Assembly (NCBI GenBank): GCA_902794035.1
Contig: CADBFN010000004.1
Coordinates: 1-64,000, forward strand
DNA length: 64,000 nt
From: an uncultured bacterium
GTDB taxonomy: Bacteria; Cyanobacteriota; Vampirovibrionia; Gastranaerophilales; Gastranaerophilaceae
Direction of reading: 5' to 3'
The notes beneath the pieces are model-generated. The model did not search any database. It was given only the letters and a program-made list of their open reading frames with translations, and had not been told where the DNA came from. The position numbers were made by a program, and so were the translations under genes. Position 1 is the first letter of the stretch; each line of letters begins with the position of its first letter. Shown here in pieces: positions 580 to 58,730 of this stretch.

Positions 580-3066
580 ATGAAGCAAAGTTATTATCCG
601 CAGGAAATTGAAAAAAAATGGAAAAAATATTGGGAAGATAATAAAGTTTTTAAAACAGAAAACGATAACGGCAAGCCAAAATATTATGCGTTGTCAATGT
701 TTCCGTATCCGTCAGGGAAATTACATATGGGACATGTCAGAAACTATACTATTACAGATGTTATTGCAAGATTTAAAAAAGCAAACGGATTTAATGTTTT
801 GCACCCGATAGGATGGGATAGTTTCGGTTTACCTGCAGAAAATGCTGCAATGAAGCATAATGCCGACCCTGAAAAATGGACTGATGAAAATATTGCTTAT
901 ATGACAGAACAATTGAAAATGCTTGGTTTGTCATACGATTGGGACAGAGAAGTTACAACCTGCAAGCCTGATTATTACAAATGGACGCAGTGGATTTTCT
1001 TACAACTATATAAAAAAGGACTTGTATATAAAAAAGAAGCTGCCGTAAACTGGTGTCCTGATTGCGGAACAGTGCTTGCAAACGAACAGGTTATAGACGG
1101 CAAATGCTGGAGATGTGATAGTGAAGTTGAGAAAAAATACTTATCTCAATGGTTTGTAAAAATAACAGAGTATGCGGATGAATTATTAAAAGACTTAGAC
1201 TTGTTAAAAGGTTGGGGCGATAATGTAAAAACTATGCAGGCAAACTGGATTGGCAAATCTCATGGTGCAATTTTCAGATTTCCTGTTGTAGATGCACCGT
1301 CAGGCGAAAAAATTGAAGTTCCTGTTTATACAACAAGACCTGACACCGTTCATGGTATAACTTATCTTGTTGTTGCTCCTGAATACAAAGATATTGAAAA
1401 ATTAACCACATCAGAAAATAAAGATGCGGTTGAACAATACAGAGCAAATGCCCGCAAAATGTCCGAAATCGAAAGACTCTCAACAGACAGAACAAAAACT
1501 GGAGTCCCTTTGGGTACGCATTGTAAAAATCCGTTTACAGGCGAAATTTTCCCGCTTTGGACTGCTGATTATGCTTTGGTGGAATACGGAACAGGGGCAG
1601 TTATGGCAGTTCCTACACATGATACAAGAGATTTTGATTTCGCAAAAAAATATAATTTGCCGATGAAAGTTGTTATTCAAAATCCTGATAACCCTTCAAA
1701 CTGTGAAAATGAAGCATACACAGAAGAAGGTGTATTGATTAATTCAAATGAATTTAACGGAATGAAAAATACCGAAGCTAAAAAAGCGATTACTCAAAAA
1801 GCCGTAGATGAAGGCTTTGGGGAATTTAAAACACAATTCAGACTTCGTGACTGGCTTATTTCCCGCCAAAGATACTGGGGTGCTCCAATCCCTGTTGTTT
1901 ATTGTGATAAATGCGGAATTCAGCCAGTTCCTGAAGATCAGCTTCCTGTATTATTGCCAAAAGATGTTGATTTTTCTGTTGTAGGTAAATCTCCTATCAC
2001 AACATCTCCGACATTTAAAGATACTGTTTGTCCTGTTTGCGGCGGGCATGCAACAAGAGAAATGGACACAATGGATACATTCATTTGTTCAAGCTGGTAT
2101 TATCTGAGATATGCAGATGCCAACAACGATAAAGAATGTTTTAACAAGGATATTGTAAATAAATGGTTGCCTGTTGATCAGTATGTCGGCGGTATTGAGC
2201 ATGCAATCTTACACTTGTTGTATTCAAGATTCTTTACTAAAGCATTAAGAGATTGCGGTCTGTTAGATTTTGATGAACCTTTTGCAAATCTTTTGACTCA
2301 GGGTATGGTCTTAAAAGACGGCTCTAAAATGTCAAAATCTAAAGGAAATACGGTTGATCCGGATGAAATATTTGAAAATTACGGAGCAGATACTGCAAGA
2401 TTGTTTATCTTGTCCGATTCACCTCCGGCAAGAGATTTTGACTGGTCAGATGCAGGTGTTGAAGGCTGCTATAAATTCTTAAACCGAGTTTGGCGACTAG
2501 TAGCATCAAATGCTGAAAATATAAATCTCAAATATAAGTTGCCGGCAAATCTTGCAAAAGACAATGACGATCTTGTTCGTACGGTTCATATGTCAATTAA
2601 AGGTATTACAAACGATATCACAAACGAATTTCAGTTTAATACCGTTATTTCAAAATATCGTGAACTTGTAAACGCTATTTATGATTGGCAAGCCAAAAAA
2701 CCTCAACTCAATGATGAAGATAAAAATGTTTTGAGTTTTGCTATTGTTTCAATGCTCAAACTCATGTCACCCGTTGCAGTTTATTTAACTGAAGAAGCAT
2801 GGCATGAATTGGGCGGAGAAGGTTCAATCCACGACCAGCCTTGGTGTGAATGGGACGAAAATCTCGCAAAATCAAGTTCTATAACCATGGTTGTTCAGAT
2901 TAACGGTAAAGTTAAAGATAAAATCGAAGTTGATGCTGAAATTTCCAAAGAAGAAATGGAAAAACATGCACTAAATAGCGATAAAATAAAAGAACTGACC
3001 GCAGGAAAAACAATAATTAAAACTATTGTTGTTCCGGGCAAATTAGTTAATATCGTTGTTAAATAA
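580..3066 (+). CDS. leuS: leucyl-tRNA synthetase
   Basis: Class I aminoacyl-tRNA synthetase that charges tRNA-Leu in the cytoplasm. The 828-residue length is normal for bacterial LeuRS. The HIGH-type motif HMGH is at residues 49-52 and the KMSKS loop is at 583-587. A zinc-type Cys cluster (CPDC, CWRC) lies near 165-185, and the inserted editing domain carries the expected TTRPDT segment near 250. The ATG at 580 is preceded by GGAG at a suitable distance. The gene stands alone downstream of the repeat region. Nothing in the sequence looks unusual and the identification is secure. Confidence 0.98.
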   Translation: MKQSYYPQEIEKKWKKYWEDNKVFKTENDNGKPKYYALSMFPYPSGKLHMGHVRNYTITDVIARFKKANGFNVLHPIGWDSFGLPAENAAMKHNADPEKWTDENIAYMTEQLKMLGLSYDWDREVTTCKPDYYKWTQWIFLQLYKKGLVYKKEAAVNWCPDCGTVLANEQVIDGKCWRCDSEVEKKYLSQWFVKITEYADELLKDLDLLKGWGDNVKTMQANWIGKSHGAIFRFPVVDAPSGEKIEVPVYTTRPDTVHGITYLVVAPEYKDIEKLTTSENKDAVEQYRANARKMSEIERLSTDRTKTGVPLGTHCKNPFTGEIFPLWTADYALVEYGTGAVMAVPTHDTRDFDFAKKYNLPMKVVIQNPDNPSNCENEAYTEEGVLINSNEFNGMKNTEAKKAITQKAVDEGFGEFKTQFRLRDWLISRQRYWGAPIPVVYCDKCGIQPVPEDQLPVLLPKDVDFSVVGKSPITTSPTFKDTVCPVCGGHATREMDTMDTFICSSWYYLRYADANNDKECFNKDIVNKWLPVDQYVGGIEHAILHLLYSRFFTKALRDCGLLDFDEPFANLLTQGMVLKDGSKMSKSKGNTVDPDEIFENYGADTARLFILSDSPPARDFDWSDAGVEGCYKFLNRVWRLVASNAENINLKYKLPANLAKDNDDLVRTVHMSIKGITNDITNEFQFNTVISKYRELVNAIYDWQAKKPQLNDEDKNVLSFAIVSMLKLMSPVAVYLTEEAWHELGGEGSIHDQPWCEWDENLAKSSSITMVVQINGKVKDKIEVDAEISKEEMEKHALNSDKIKELTAGKTIIKTIVVPGKLVNIVVK

Positions 3067-3067
3067 T

Positions 3068-3160
3068 GTGAAAAGTGAATCGTGAGTTGTGAATTGTCGT
3101 TATCGATGCTAACGCAAATTTAAAAACCGTTAAATTCGTAAAGGTCAATTCACTTTTCAC
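3068..3160. repeat. long-range inverted repeat between leuS and amrS
   Basis: A perfect 13-bp inverted repeat (3068-3080 and 3148-3160, GTGAAAAGTGAAT and its complement) brackets 67 bases between two converging genes. It could act as a weak terminator or be a mobile palindromic repeat. There is no clear U-tract. Confidence 0.55.
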
Positions 3161-3172
3161 TATTCACTTAAA

Positions 3173-4174
3173 TTAAAATCGCCCGTCGCATTGGGTTGCA
3201 CAGAATTTGCATTTGCCTGAATTATCAAGGTTATACTCCAAAAGTTGATAACCGTTGCGGACAATTACACCCTTGCCACAATTTTTGCAATAAGTTGTTG
3301 AAGTCTGAATATTTGTAATATTACCGGTATAAACATAATTAAGTTCCACTTCTTTTGCAATTTTGTATGCCTTTATAAGTGTTGAAAATTCTGTTGGTTT
3401 GCGATTTTCAAATTTATAACGGGGGAAAAATGCGCTGAAATGCAAAGGAACATCTGCTCCGACATTATTTAAAATCCACTCGCATTCGGCTTTTAATTCT
3501 TCTTCACTGTCGTTTTCGCCCTCAATCAGCATTGTTGTAAGTTCTACATGGCAATCTGTTTGGTTGCTGGCATATTTAATTGTATCAAGCACAGGTTCTA
3601 ACTTTGCAAGGCAATTTTTTGCATAAAATTTTTCGCTGAAACCTTTTAAATCGATATTTGCGGCATCCATATAAGAAAAAAATTCTTTTGCAGGTTCAGG
3701 ATTTATATAACCTGAAGTTACTGCGACAGTTTTTATTCCAAACTGACGGCATAATTTCGCACAGTCAAGAGCATATTCAAAAAATATAATCGGGTCATTA
3801 TAAGTAAATGCGATACTTTTGCAATTGTGTTTAAGTGCTATTGCGACAATATCCTGCGGAGAATTGTAATTCAAACTTTTCGGGTCAGATTTATTTTTTG
3901 TTGTTTGCCAGTTTTGGCAAAACTGACAACCCATATTACAGCCCAAAGTGCCAAAAGATAATACCCCCGTTGTGGGATAGAATTGATACAAAGGCTTTTT
4001 CTCAATCGGATCTATTGCAAGCCCCGTATTATATCCGTATGTGTCAAGAACAATTTGACCGTTAAAATGTTTACGAACATGACAAAATCCCCTTTGTCCC
4101 TCTTGTAGTACGCATTTACGCGGACAAATTGTGCATTGGATTTTACCGTTTGTTAAAATGTTTTGAAATTTCAT
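3173..4174 (-). CDS. amrS: AmmeMemoRadiSam system radical SAM enzyme
   Basis: Radical SAM protein of the conserved AmmeMemoRadiSam trio, whose substrate is not settled. The radical SAM cluster motif CxxxCxxC is at C79, C83 and C86. An N-terminal Cys group (C14, C17, C21, C31) and a C-terminal zinc-ribbon-like pair (CKNC ... CKFC) flank the core. Length 333 is typical. It is divergent from the Memo-AMMECR1 fusion gene, with only 21 bases between the two start codons. There is no ribosome binding site. TATAAT on this strand (4182-4187) ends 7 nt before ATG, so the mRNA is probably leaderless or nearly so. Confidence 0.92.
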   Translation of the reverse strand: MKFQNILTNGKIQCTICPRKCVLQEGQRGFCHVRKHFNGQIVLDTYGYNTGLAIDPIEKKPLYQFYPTTGVLSFGTLGCNMGCQFCQNWQTTKNKSDPKSLNYNSPQDIVAIALKHNCKSIAFTYNDPIIFFEYALDCAKLCRQFGIKTVAVTSGYINPEPAKEFFSYMDAANIDLKGFSEKFYAKNCLAKLEPVLDTIKYASNQTDCHVELTTMLIEGENDSEEELKAECEWILNNVGADVPLHFSAFFPRYKFENRKPTEFSTLIKAYKIAKEVELNYVYTGNITNIQTSTTYCKNCGKGVIVRNGYQLLEYNLDNSGKCKFCATQCDGRF

Positions 4175-4180
4175 ATTTTG

Positions 4181-4190
4181 TATTATAATA
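4181..4190. promoter_or_regulatory. palindromic bidirectional -10 element
   Basis: The 10-base palindrome TATTATAATA contains TATAAT on both strands. On the plus strand TATAAT (4184-4189) sits 6 nt before the ATG at 4196. On the minus strand (4182-4187) it sits 7 nt before the ATG at 4174. One symmetric core therefore seems to start both divergent genes. Any -35 boxes would lie inside the opposite coding sequences. TTGAAA at 4163-4168 is a possible plus-strand -35 with a short 15-nt spacer. Confidence 0.6.
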
Positions 4191-4195
4191 CTGCC

Positions 4196-5539
4196 ATGAA
4201 CAAAATAAAAGAACCGTCAGTTGCCAATACATTTTATACAGGCAATGTAGAAGATTTAAAATTACATATAGAAAATTTTAAAGAAACCAGTAAGAATTTG
4301 TATCGCTATGCGACAAGAGCTGTTATTGTTCCTCACGCCGGCTTGGTTTACTCCGGTCGTTTGGCATATGAAGGAATAAGTCAAATTGATAAAAATGTAA
4401 AAAATATTTTTATCTTTGCACCCTCTCACCGTGTTGGTTTTGATGGGATAGCCATTTCAAGTTATGATGGCTGGAAAACACCGCTTGGGGTTTCTGAAGT
4501 TAATTTTGATATTTGTAAAGAATTAAGCGAAAAGTTTGGAGCGAATATCAATGATGAAGCTATGACTGCAGAACACTCCATTGAAGTTGAACTTCCGATA
4601 ATTCAGTCATTGTTTGAAGGGGTAAAAATTGTTCCTGTATTGATTGGGAAAGAGGATCCTGTCAAGATAATGGAAATAATTGAATATTATTACAAAAATA
4701 GCGAAAATGCTTTCGTTATTTCCTCTGATTTAAGCCATTTCTTGTCAGACGAAAAAGCTAAGGCTACTGATAAGATTACTGCCCAAATGATTGAAACAGG
4801 GAATATCGCAGGTTTTAAATATGAACAGGCTTGTGGCGCTGTCGGGGTTACAGGACTTGTGGCCTTTGCCAATAAAAATAAATTTTCAATGATAAGAATT
4901 GATTTGGCAAATTCATCAGAGATTACAGAAGATACTTCAAGAGTTGTCGGGTACGGTTGCTGGTTTTTGTATGAAGGAAACAAGAATGATTTTATTGCAA
5001 AATATCATGCAGGTTTTACGATAGATATATGTAAATTGATTATTCGTTCTGAGTTTGATGAAAAACCTATGTCGATAATTTATCCTCAGGTTTTTGATCA
5101 GCCGGGTGCATGTTTTGTTACAATAGAGAAAAACGGTCATTTGAGAGGTTGTATCGGATCAATTGTTGCATACAGAGCATTAATTACTGATTTGGTTGAG
5201 CATGCAAAAGATGCAGCATTTAAAGATACTAGATTTTCTCCTGTCAAAGAAGAAGAATTGCCTGATTTAAAATTTTCGGTTTCAATTTTGACAGATCCTA
5301 AAAAAATTGTTTTTGAAAATGAAGATCAGTTAATGGAAAAAATTGTTCCGAATGAAGACGGTATAATTATTCGTGACGGCGATTTACAGGCTGTTTATCT
5401 GCCGTCTGTATGGGCTGAAATTCCTGATAAAAAAGAATTTATTAAATCCTTAAAGTTAAAAGCTGGAATGGAAGAAAATCATTTTTCTGATACGTTTGAG
5501 GCTTTCAAATTCCATACGATTTATATTAAAGAAAAATAA
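4196..5539 (+). CDS. Memo-AMMECR1 fusion protein of the AmmeMemoRadiSam system
   Basis: An N-terminal Memo domain is followed by an AMMECR1 domain in one 447-residue chain. Memo features are VPHAGLVYSG, an EHSIEVELP segment and ISSDLSHF with metal-type His residues. The AMMECR1 half has the hallmark HLRGCIGS. The frame opens at 4163, but the ATG at 4196 is preferred: an earlier start would overlap the divergent gene, and TATAAT ends 6 nt before 4196. Together with the divergent radical SAM gene this completes the trio. The cellular role is unresolved, and a protein, lipid or small-molecule modification is only inferred. Confidence 0.9.
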   Translation: MNKIKEPSVANTFYTGNVEDLKLHIENFKETSKNLYRYATRAVIVPHAGLVYSGRLAYEGISQIDKNVKNIFIFAPSHRVGFDGIAISSYDGWKTPLGVSEVNFDICKELSEKFGANINDEAMTAEHSIEVELPIIQSLFEGVKIVPVLIGKEDPVKIMEIIEYYYKNSENAFVISSDLSHFLSDEKAKATDKITAQMIETGNIAGFKYEQACGAVGVTGLVAFANKNKFSMIRIDLANSSEITEDTSRVVGYGCWFLYEGNKNDFIAKYHAGFTIDICKLIIRSEFDEKPMSIIYPQVFDQPGACFVTIEKNGHLRGCIGSIVAYRALITDLVEHAKDAAFKDTRFSPVKEEELPDLKFSVSILTDPKKIVFENEDQLMEKIVPNEDGIIIRDGDLQAVYLPSVWAEIPDKKEFIKSLKLKAGMEENHFSDTFEAFKFHTIYIKEK

Positions 5540-5552
5540 TTATAACTAAGAT

Positions 5553-6713
5553 TTATAGATCAATATCTATAAAGTCTTCTTCTTTTTTATAATTTTTTCT
5601 TGCTTTTGAGTTTCTTACTCTTTCATTTCTTTTTTTTGTACGTTTTGATAATTTTTTATATGCGTTATCAACAGAAATTTTTGTAATTGGTTCGCCTGTT
5701 TTTCTGTCAAAAAATACCAGCCAAAAATCTCTGTTTAAGTTATCAACAGTAAAAGATACATTAGCAATCAGCCTGTCCCCTGGTTTTACTTGTCTGAACA
5801 TAAGTTTTGTATCTCCAAAGATAGACGGACTGAATTTTACGCCGTAATCATTTTCCAAAATCATGTCAAACCCTGATAATGTTTTATCCGATAAATTCGA
5901 AATCAGTAATGACAGTGTCATTGTATTTGCTTCGCCGAAAGGATCTTTTTCGTGTTTAACATTATTAATATTTATTGTAAGACCTTTATATAATATTTCT
6001 TCTTTTCGCAGAGCTTCTTCTTTATATACAGGCAAATCAACAGAAGTATTTATTTTTACTTTAATCTGATCCCCCGGAGCAATCAAAACATCGCCCCCCT
6101 TTCTTATCAGGGAAGCTCCAAGTCCTATAACTCCACCAATAGCCGCACCGCCTGCTACTGTATATCCATGAGATGCTATAGCAGCTTCTATACCTAAAAA
6201 TTGTATAGCCATAAGACCACCAACAGCTCCGCCTCCAACTGTATAGCCTACATCTTGTGCAACTATTTTTGCTGTTTCTTTAACAGGATTTAATTTTGTA
6301 GTCATTTTGCCTTCAATCGGTATTTCACGTCCGTCAGGCGTTATAAGATAATCAAATGACAAATCCAAGGTCGCCATTCGCCCTAAACGTTTATTAGCCG
6401 TAATCAGTTCTATACGTCCATGGGCTTTTGTTCCTTTAGGGATTATAACTCCTTTGTCGCCATAAACATCAGATGTAACTTCCGCAAAAAATTCATCTCC
6501 TTCCATTGAAATAGTTGAATCTAAGACCTGAGAAACAGTCATATTAATTACGTCTTTTCGCTCGAGTGTTTCAACCCTTCCGGTAAAGAGTTTGTTATAA
6601 TCTTCCTGATAGCTGCCGGTTTCACTGACAGAACCGCGCAGAGGCTCTTGTGCAAAGGCCATATCAAGTGATAATACGGATAATATTAATAAAGCTCCTA
6701 CTAATCTTTTCAT
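5553..6713 (-). CDS. exported protein with TrbI/VirB10-like beta domain
   Basis: Starts with a signal peptide (MKRLVGALLILSVLSLDMAFA). The middle has the VirB10/TrbI-type pattern: a secreted domain with PKGTKAHGRIE, then GRMATLDLSFDYLITPDG and an IPIEGK strand, followed by a glycine-rich hydrophobic stretch near 155-210. The C-terminus is very basic with KKRNERVR-like runs. I chose the ATG at 6713 rather than 6731 because the signal peptide begins there and TATAAT (6720-6725) lies exactly 6 nt upstream. A shorter paralogue is at 60369. No other conjugation genes are nearby, so a cell-envelope role is more likely than transfer. Confidence 0.6.
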   Translation of the reverse strand: MKRLVGALLILSVLSLDMAFAQEPLRGSVSETGSYQEDYNKLFTGRVETLERKDVINMTVSQVLDSTISMEGDEFFAEVTSDVYGDKGVIIPKGTKAHGRIELITANKRLGRMATLDLSFDYLITPDGREIPIEGKMTTKLNPVKETAKIVAQDVGYTVGGGAVGGLMAIQFLGIEAAIASHGYTVAGGAAIGGVIGLGASLIRKGGDVLIAPGDQIKVKINTSVDLPVYKEEALRKEEILYKGLTININNVKHEKDPFGEANTMTLSLLISNLSDKTLSGFDMILENDYGVKFSPSIFGDTKLMFRQVKPGDRLIANVSFTVDNLNRDFWLVFFDRKTGEPITKISVDNAYKKLSKRTKKRNERVRNSKARKNYKKEEDFIDIDL

Positions 6714-6719
6714 AATTTG

Positions 6720-6725
6720 ATTATA
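6720..6725 (-). promoter_or_regulatory. TATAAT box 6 nt before start (leaderless)
   Basis: TATAAT on the minus strand, then CAAATT, then the ATG at 6713. No Shine-Dalgarno sequence is present. TTGCTC at 6743-6748 is a weak -35 candidate with a 17-nt spacer. Confidence 0.55.
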
Positions 6726-6751
6726 TCCCATAAACCGGCTTTGAGCAAATA

Positions 6752-57725: not shown

Positions 57726-58730
57726 ATGAAAACAATACCAATATTTTTTACTTTTGACAATAATTATGTCGAGCCGGCGGCGGTTGCTTTTTATTCTTTG
57801 CTGAACAAAGCAAAAGAAAATGTATATTATGAAATGTATGTTTTACATTCTGATATAACAGAAGAAAAACAGCATCTACTAACTGAAATTGTAAATAAAA
57901 AAGGTAATGCAAAACTTACATTTACAAATACTGACGGTTTTTTAAACGAGTTTTGGGATAATGGAACTTTTAATTTTCAATCTTCAAATTCAACATTTAC
58001 GGCAGATACTATTATAAGATGCTTTGGATCAAAATTCTTTCCTCAATATGACAAAATTATTTATTCTGATGTTGATATAATTGTTGTTGATGATATCTCG
58101 GATGTTTATGATATAGATTTAACAAATAAATATATTGCGGGAGTAAAAAATCCGTTTACAAAATGGAGTGAATATGAATTATCACACCTAAAACCAGAAC
58201 ACTATGAAATGCTTCATGATAAATATCTTGGCGGTGGCATTTGGGTTATGAATCTCAAAAAAATTAGAGAAGATAACATAGAACAGCGAATGATAGAAAT
58301 TGTTAAGGATGAATCAATTGTGAAACGCTGGAATGATCAGGATATTATGAATATTTCCTGTGGAGGGAAAGTTGGTTTTCTTCCACTAAATTACATTTCA
58401 TATCCATATATGATTGATTTGCTATCTAATCCTGATTTTGAAAGTGATTACTCAAGAGAAGAATTGTATGATTCAATAATTAATCCTAAAATTATACACT
58501 TTGCTGCGGACAAACCATGGAATAGTAATCCCAAATACTCTAATCTCTGGTGGACATTTTTCCATTATCTGGGCTTGGAAAAAACTAAAATTTTTAAAGA
58601 ACCCGAGTGTATAAATTATGAAGCAGAAAAATTTAAGAAAAAACATAAAAAATATAAAAATTTGTTTAAATTATTTTTAATTATAACAGTTATTTTGGCA
58701 ATATTCTTAGTTTTTAATTTAATTTTTTAA
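57726..58730 (+). CDS. GT8 glycosyltransferase with C-terminal membrane helix
   Basis: 334 residues. PIFFTFDNNYVEPAAVAFYSLL, a YSDVDIIVVDD metal motif, YLGGGIWVMNLKKI, WNDQDIMN and the ending IIHFAADKPWN are typical of GT8 enzymes. Unlike most members, the last 20 residues form a hydrophobic helix (LIITVILAIFLVFNLIF) that would anchor it in the membrane. AGAGGAA precedes the ATG. It lies 9 bases before the aminotransferase gene. Confidence 0.9.
   Translation: MKTIPIFFTFDNNYVEPAAVAFYSLLNKAKENVYYEMYVLHSDITEEKQHLLTEIVNKKGNAKLTFTNTDGFLNEFWDNGTFNFQSSNSTFTADTIIRCFGSKFFPQYDKIIYSDVDIIVVDDISDVYDIDLTNKYIAGVKNPFTKWSEYELSHLKPEHYEMLHDKYLGGGIWVMNLKKIREDNIEQRMIEIVKDESIVKRWNDQDIMNISCGGKVGFLPLNYISYPYMIDLLSNPDFESDYSREELYDSIINPKIIHFAADKPWNSNPKYSNLWWTFFHYLGLEKTKIFKEPECINYEAEKFKKKHKKYKNLFKLFLIITVILAIFLVFNLIF

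Follow-up and report, generated by a model that had tools for sequence, protein, structure and literature searches.

The window analysed here is a 64,000-nt stretch of a bacterial genome of 47 contigs and 1,785,283 bases, from a group of cyanobacterial relatives that live in the gut, and it carries a complete AmmeMemoRadiSam set in two divergent genes. Family profile searches matched all three components above curated cut-offs (TIGR04337, TIGR04336 and TIGR04335), with proteins A and B fused in one product, and returned no DNA-binding family match for either protein. The amrS ATG lies at 4174–4172 on the minus strand and the memo-AMMECR1 ATG at 4196–4198 on the plus strand, and direct reading of the gap at 4175–4195 confirms exactly the 21-base separation of divergent AmmeMemoRadiSam start codons given in the initial annotation. 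The features of this locus, and of one comparable gap elsewhere in the genome, are as follows.

3173–4174, minus strand: amrS, AmmeMemoRadiSam radical SAM enzyme of 333 aa, predicted leaderless (TIGR04337, 479.4 bits against a cut-off of 220)
4163–4168, plus strand: TTGAAA, a weak candidate −35-like hexamer for memo, spacer 15 nt, within amrS codons 3–4, proposed from sequence
4175–4195, both strands: intergenic gap of 21 nt, ATTTTGTATTATAATACTGCC, lacking a Shine-Dalgarno-like core in both directions
4180–4191, both strands: GTATTATAATAC, perfect 12-nt palindrome by sequence; its outer two pairs are variable in the alignment of relatives
4182–4189, both strands: ATTATAAT core, made of two perfect TATAATs that overlap on opposing strands, invariant in 51 aligned gaps
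4182–4187, minus strand: TATAAT, by position the predicted −10 of amrS, 7 nt before the ATG
4184–4189, plus strand: TATAAT, by position the predicted −10 of memo-AMMECR1, 6 nt before the ATG
4196–5539, plus strand: Memo (protein B)–AMMECR1 (protein A) fusion of 447 aa, predicted leaderless (TIGR04336 and TIGR04335 above cut-off; PF01875, PF01871)
Contig 2, 58579–58595 (L153, 18579–18595), divergent: 17-nt gap beside a DUF4186 gene, with a common TATGATA

Between leuS and amrS (3067–3172) the window contains GTGAAAAGTGAAT followed 3′ by ATTCACTTTTCAC, which by eye form an inverted repeat, perhaps a small repetitive element. Beyond the fusion gene, the protein encoded at 5553–6731 has weak TrbI and ComB10 matches below curated cut-offs.

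Two overlapping TATAAT hexamers in a 21-nt gap

A single palindrome supplies TATAAT to both strands at 6 and 7 nt from the two ATGs, and these positions are exactly those proposed initially; the palindrome itself is also present, and its perfect symmetry extends further than had been given, to the 12-mer GTATTATAATAC. Enumeration of all overlaps identified ATTATAAT as the shortest DNA that can contain two perfect opposed TATAATs, and the resulting −10 elements overlap reciprocally on opposite strands, the arrangement that characterizes bidirectional promoters. The suggestion that this is close to the smallest possible divergent promoter is therefore correct for the core, which is minimal, and incorrect for the gap, because the same genome contains a divergent pair separated by 17 nt. 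That pair consists of a DUF4186 gene (PF13811) and an ORF of no known family, with TATGATA 6 nt from each ATG. The 17-nt length recurs in three relatives (L253, L254 and L255), with DUF4186 matched in the first two and cut short in L255 by a stop soon after the start, and the layout is absent from two more distant relatives (L256 and L257). The plus-strand ATG of the pair may not be the real start, because another ATG lies two codons on.

Other promoter features are sparse, which weighs against the promoter reading. A strong −35 on either strand was rejected: a consensus promoter scan listed 15 promoter-like sites, where 11.4 were expected, without including the TATAAT of this gap on either strand, and nothing convincing was seen as a minus-strand −35. 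In the memo direction, the TTG of the TTGAAA hexamer (4163–4165) is present in 51 of 51 aligned loci; the corresponding amrS codon 4 is CAA in all 50 short-form loci (defined below) versus 67% CAA elsewhere in amrS, a bias that codon preference near gene starts may explain, and six lone amrS genes use CAG and CAA three times each. The TG that frequently precedes the −10 of leaderless-type starts in this genome is missing on both strands here: in the one-sided promoters TGn often stands directly before the −10, and at this core the opposing hexamer occupies those positions. A terminator in the gap was also rejected, with the two terminator-like sites found in 3000–5700 falling elsewhere.

Single-genome counts place little weight on the sequence itself. 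The decamer TATTATAATA occurs once in the 64-kb window against 0.77 expected, which is ordinary in AT-rich DNA. The 12-mer GTATTATAATAC occurs once in the window against 0.00 expected, and once in the whole genome as well as once in a reversed control sequence. The exact layout CAT-N7-ATTATAAT-N6-ATG is found once in the genome and not in the reversed control, and the looser layout CAT-N6-8-ATTATAAT-N6-8-ATG once in each. Because such counts prove little, conservation among relatives is the decisive evidence.

Conservation of the core among relatives

We collected 93 divergent amrS/memo records and reduced them to 68 distinct loci by dropping copies with an identical gap and identical first 150 amrS residues. 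The core ATTATAAT is kept in 64 of the 68 (64 of 67 without Photobacterium), and the loss of symmetry among close relatives that the initial annotation proposed to look for by alignment did not occur. The four core-free loci are L086, from Photobacterium and far outside the group; L192 and L209, with gaps of 557 and 90 nt; and L206, where a different symmetric arrangement, GTATAATTATAC, lies between amrS and memo in place of ATTATAAT. Among the 64 loci with the core, the distance to amrS is 7 nt in 62 (the exceptions being 9 and 10 nt). The distance to memo is 6 nt in 51 loci and in L011 (scored at 6 nt because its alignment start precedes the ATG, leaving 3 nt uncorrected), 7 nt in two, and 33–42 nt in ten. 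These define a short form, with memo 6–7 nt from the core (54 of 64), and a long form (10 of 64), of which L083 has a nearer ATG 24 nt from the core.

We next aligned the 51 gaps of 21 nt (50 together with the corrected L011) and counted changes on the first of two amrS trees. The eight columns 4182–4189 show no change in any of the 51 gaps, versus 2–12 changes in each of the remaining 13 columns and 83 in total, although amrS identity to the window copy falls to 63% across these rows. This invariant block coincides exactly with the two TATAAT hexamers taken together; a single functional hexamer would leave two of the eight bases free. Outside this block the palindrome decays: pair 4181/4190 is complementary in 42 of 51 gaps and pair 4180/4191 in 39, the latter with A-T in place of G-C in four gaps, which hints weakly at paired change (p 0.09). 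The predicted start positions are also uniform, with a pyrimidine at −1 in 50 of 51 amrS and 51 of 51 memo sides and an A at +1 in the same proportions. The core is likewise kept in long-form loci with amrS identity down to 52%. This pattern of invariance fits two −10 elements better than a single one, and better than an operator.

Lone genes provide a comparison. Ten amrS or memo genes outside a divergent pair carry TATAAT 6–7 nt before the ATG, eight of them memo (L198, L200, L202, L203, L205, L207, L208 and L218) and two amrS (L058 and L062), and four of the ten have the symmetric ATTATAAT (memo L208 and L218, amrS L058 and L062). Upstream of the two amrS genes lie a divergent tRNA-Gln at about 107 nt (L058) and a divergent ORF at 120 nt (L062). 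For L218, no divergent ORF of more than 60 aa starts within 500 nt, so the symmetric core does not depend strictly on a divergent partner; the L218 product has a hydrophobic N-terminal extension (MKKILFLLIIIACAGIG...), with ATTATAAT 6 nt before the ATG. Other lone amrS genes have TGCTAATAT (L070 and L071) or no clear box (L064 and L065), and more distant ones mostly appear leadered. The symmetric form is much commoner in the divergent pair than at lone genes, though not confined to the pair (Fisher tests treat related loci as independent, and their p values are too small). Across genomes G000–G088 the looser CAT-N6-8-ATTATAAT-N6-8-ATG layout, amrS/memo included, has 91 matches versus 36 in the reversed control. 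A non-random sample of 30 of these loci, one per genome, contained three pairs other than amrS/memo with ORFs of more than 100 aa on both sides, all from other genera and named by eye: a prephenate dehydratase-like/phosphohexomutase-like pair (L176) and HemW-like/SIS-domain-like pairs (L185 and L186).

Two changes of state are needed to place the short and long forms on the amrS tree. A single short-form clade is rejected (p-AU 0.0024) on a second tree that leaves out L081 (a truncated row), L192, L206 and L086 and whose bootstrap is not quite settled. On the first tree L083, together with the poorly placed L081, is a long form nested inside the short group, and the other long forms branch first when L209 is taken as root, which is an assumption. 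The simplest reading of these sequences is that the symmetric core and a leaderless amrS came first, that memo then became leaderless through deletion of about 28 nt, and that at least one lineage reverted. The Memo-AMMECR1 gene itself is patchy, with a match in 22 of 45 same-genus relatives, and the gene tree mixes family codes; together these observations hint at transfer or repeated loss.

Leaderless-type starts in the genome

To place the two starts in their genomic context we sampled 464 kb (26% of the genome) as 20 stretches plus the window, and applied simple ORF rules, independent of annotation, which gave 395 ATG-started ORFs of 100 aa or longer. TATAAT stands 6–7 nt before the ATG in 15 of these ORFs (11 at 6 nt and 4 at 7 nt, the amrS/memo locus contributing one to each), against about 1.4 expected from internal ATGs (about 1.0 at 6 nt and 0.4 at 7 nt). 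None of the 15 has a Shine-Dalgarno-like core, versus 179 of the 395 overall, and only one of the 13 from other loci has the symmetric form. A more permissive TAnnnT box peaks at the same position, with 46 ORFs at 6 nt versus 5–33 at other spacings from 0 to 39. These 46 share further preferences: 41 have T at −1, 37 have T at −15 and 26 have G at −14, and T also stands at −35 in 34 and at −34 in 27.

The amrS/memo loci follow this pattern. Within 20 nt of the memo or amrS start, a Shine-Dalgarno-like core is found in none of the 54 short-form loci. In 20-nt windows before the ten long-form memo starts, a lenient core is present in all ten (2.7 expected from shuffles) and a strict core in six (1.7 expected). 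In both amrS and memo-AMMECR1 a predicted −10 lies about 12 nt upstream of the start codon and a Shine-Dalgarno sequence is missing, the combination expected of leaderless (TA-led) genes. The proposal of one symmetric −10 serving two leaderless genes is well supported at the level of sequence comparison: the union of the hexamers is invariant in 51 of 51 gaps, Shine-Dalgarno-like cores are found in 0 of 54 loci, and symmetry is kept.

A candidate minimal bidirectional promoter

The gap is probably a minimal bidirectional promoter that gives rise to two mRNAs, both predicted to be leaderless, from starts predicted to lie 22 bp apart. A single RNA polymerase carrying the housekeeping sigma factor would melt the ATTATAAT core in either orientation, starting rightward at the A of the memo-AMMECR1 ATG or leftward at the A of the amrS ATG. 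Both mRNAs would be leaderless and translated without a Shine-Dalgarno sequence. Two polymerases could not occupy the core together, so one gene would be chosen at each initiation. We infer these start sites, two-way polymerase use, leaderless translation and mutual exclusion from the arrangement of the sequence and its conservation.

Other explanations account for part of this evidence. A perfect palindrome between divergent genes could be the operator of a dimeric regulator, with the promoters elsewhere or overlapping it; the palindrome bears some likeness to one half of a PerR-type box, the symmetric core persists in four amrS or memo genes that stand alone, and the A-T for G-C exchange at 4180/4191 in 4 of 51 gaps (p 0.09) would fit paired change. 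An operator is nonetheless improbable, as the exact 12-mer occurs once in the genome and reveals no regulon at that exactness, 9 and 12 of the 51 gaps lack complementarity at the two outer pairs, with the invariant block ending at the TATAAT hexamers, and neither gene product matches a DNA-binding family. Use of the core in one direction only, most likely by amrS with its nearly fixed spacing, and with the memo promoter inside amrS, would explain why amrS stays at 7 nt in 62 of 64 loci regardless of the memo side while memo lies 33–42 nt away in ten. We consider this very improbable: the bases used only by the memo hexamer, A4188 and T4189, are invariant in 51 of 51 gaps and present in all ten long forms, a memo leader transcribed from within amrS should require a Shine-Dalgarno-like core, which is found in 0 of 54 short-form loci, and eight lone memo genes also have TATAAT 6–7 nt before the ATG.

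Chance in AT-rich DNA combined with recent common ancestry would be compatible with the 0.77 copies of TATTATAATA expected in the window and with equal numbers of genome and control matches to the looser layout, but has almost no probability given 83 changes in the other 13 columns versus none in the eight, at amrS identities down to 63%, and a core kept in long-form loci down to 52%. A further reading concerns the function of the bidirectional promoter. Here the overlap itself would have been selected, one polymerase site forming a mutually exclusive, ratio-fixing switch between amrS and Memo-AMMECR1, with the memo leader later cut away in part of the Gastranaerophilales so that the start codons came to lie at the promoter's two edges; we regard this as a tentative and rather unlikely extension.

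The proposed bidirectional promoter joins two known types of element. As far as the available text of two studies describes them, bidirectional promoters have divergent starts 7–25 bp apart, most often 18 bp, with spacings of 10 and 23 bp also common (PMC10268837; PMC12825309). The amrS/memo gap resembles these promoters in its overlapping opposed −10 elements and in a predicted spacing of 22 bp, which falls within that range, or 21 bp if starts lie 7 bp away. It differs from the published examples described there in that its TATAATs are perfect and share TATA, in that both products are predicted to be leaderless, and in the conservation of the core across an order. Most relatives lack, on each strand, the T at −18 (4178 and 4192) that is typical of the published examples. 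A TATAAT-like box abutting the start codon, with no Shine-Dalgarno sequence, is described for leaderless TA-led genes (PMC3160421) and as the ORF-adjacent −10 motif of Deinococcus-Thermus (PMC12340547); in contrast to those systems, one amrS/memo box would serve two genes, and a term search of the main texts of both papers did not find the words 'divergent' or 'bidirectional'. As described in the available text of PMC5648196, M. tuberculosis lysG/lysE is also a divergent pair with overlapping promoters and one leaderless lysE transcript, but its gap is 108 bp, a LysR-type regulator is involved, and a second, separate promoter makes the leaderless transcript. Literature searches judged from their listings gave no paper on the amrS/memo locus and none describing a bidirectional promoter with two leaderless products. 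Both types of element, the bidirectional promoter and the leaderless gene, are established; what is new is their combination at a core that is predicted to be leaderless on both sides and is conserved throughout an order.

The E. coli work, in the text of PMC12825309 available, reports that basal activity at bidirectional promoters is too low for competition and that activation of one direction tended to inhibit the opposite transcript. Because one-sided activation tended to inhibit the other side in the E. coli promoters tested, the shared core does not imply that amrS and memo expression rise and fall together, as the initial annotation had supposed; by analogy, the published work suggests competition rather than coupling.

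Bidirectional promoters have been described, in the literature available to us, from start-site maps and reporters, and the amrS/memo locus adds base-exact conservation of the hexamers. That both overlapping hexamers have been kept throughout an order is evidence that selection maintains the sharing, which would then be more than a by-product of −10 symmetry. The module is about 30 bp long and directly testable, and relatives with a leadered partner in some cases and a leaderless one in others, around the same core, provide a natural series for changes in translation mode.
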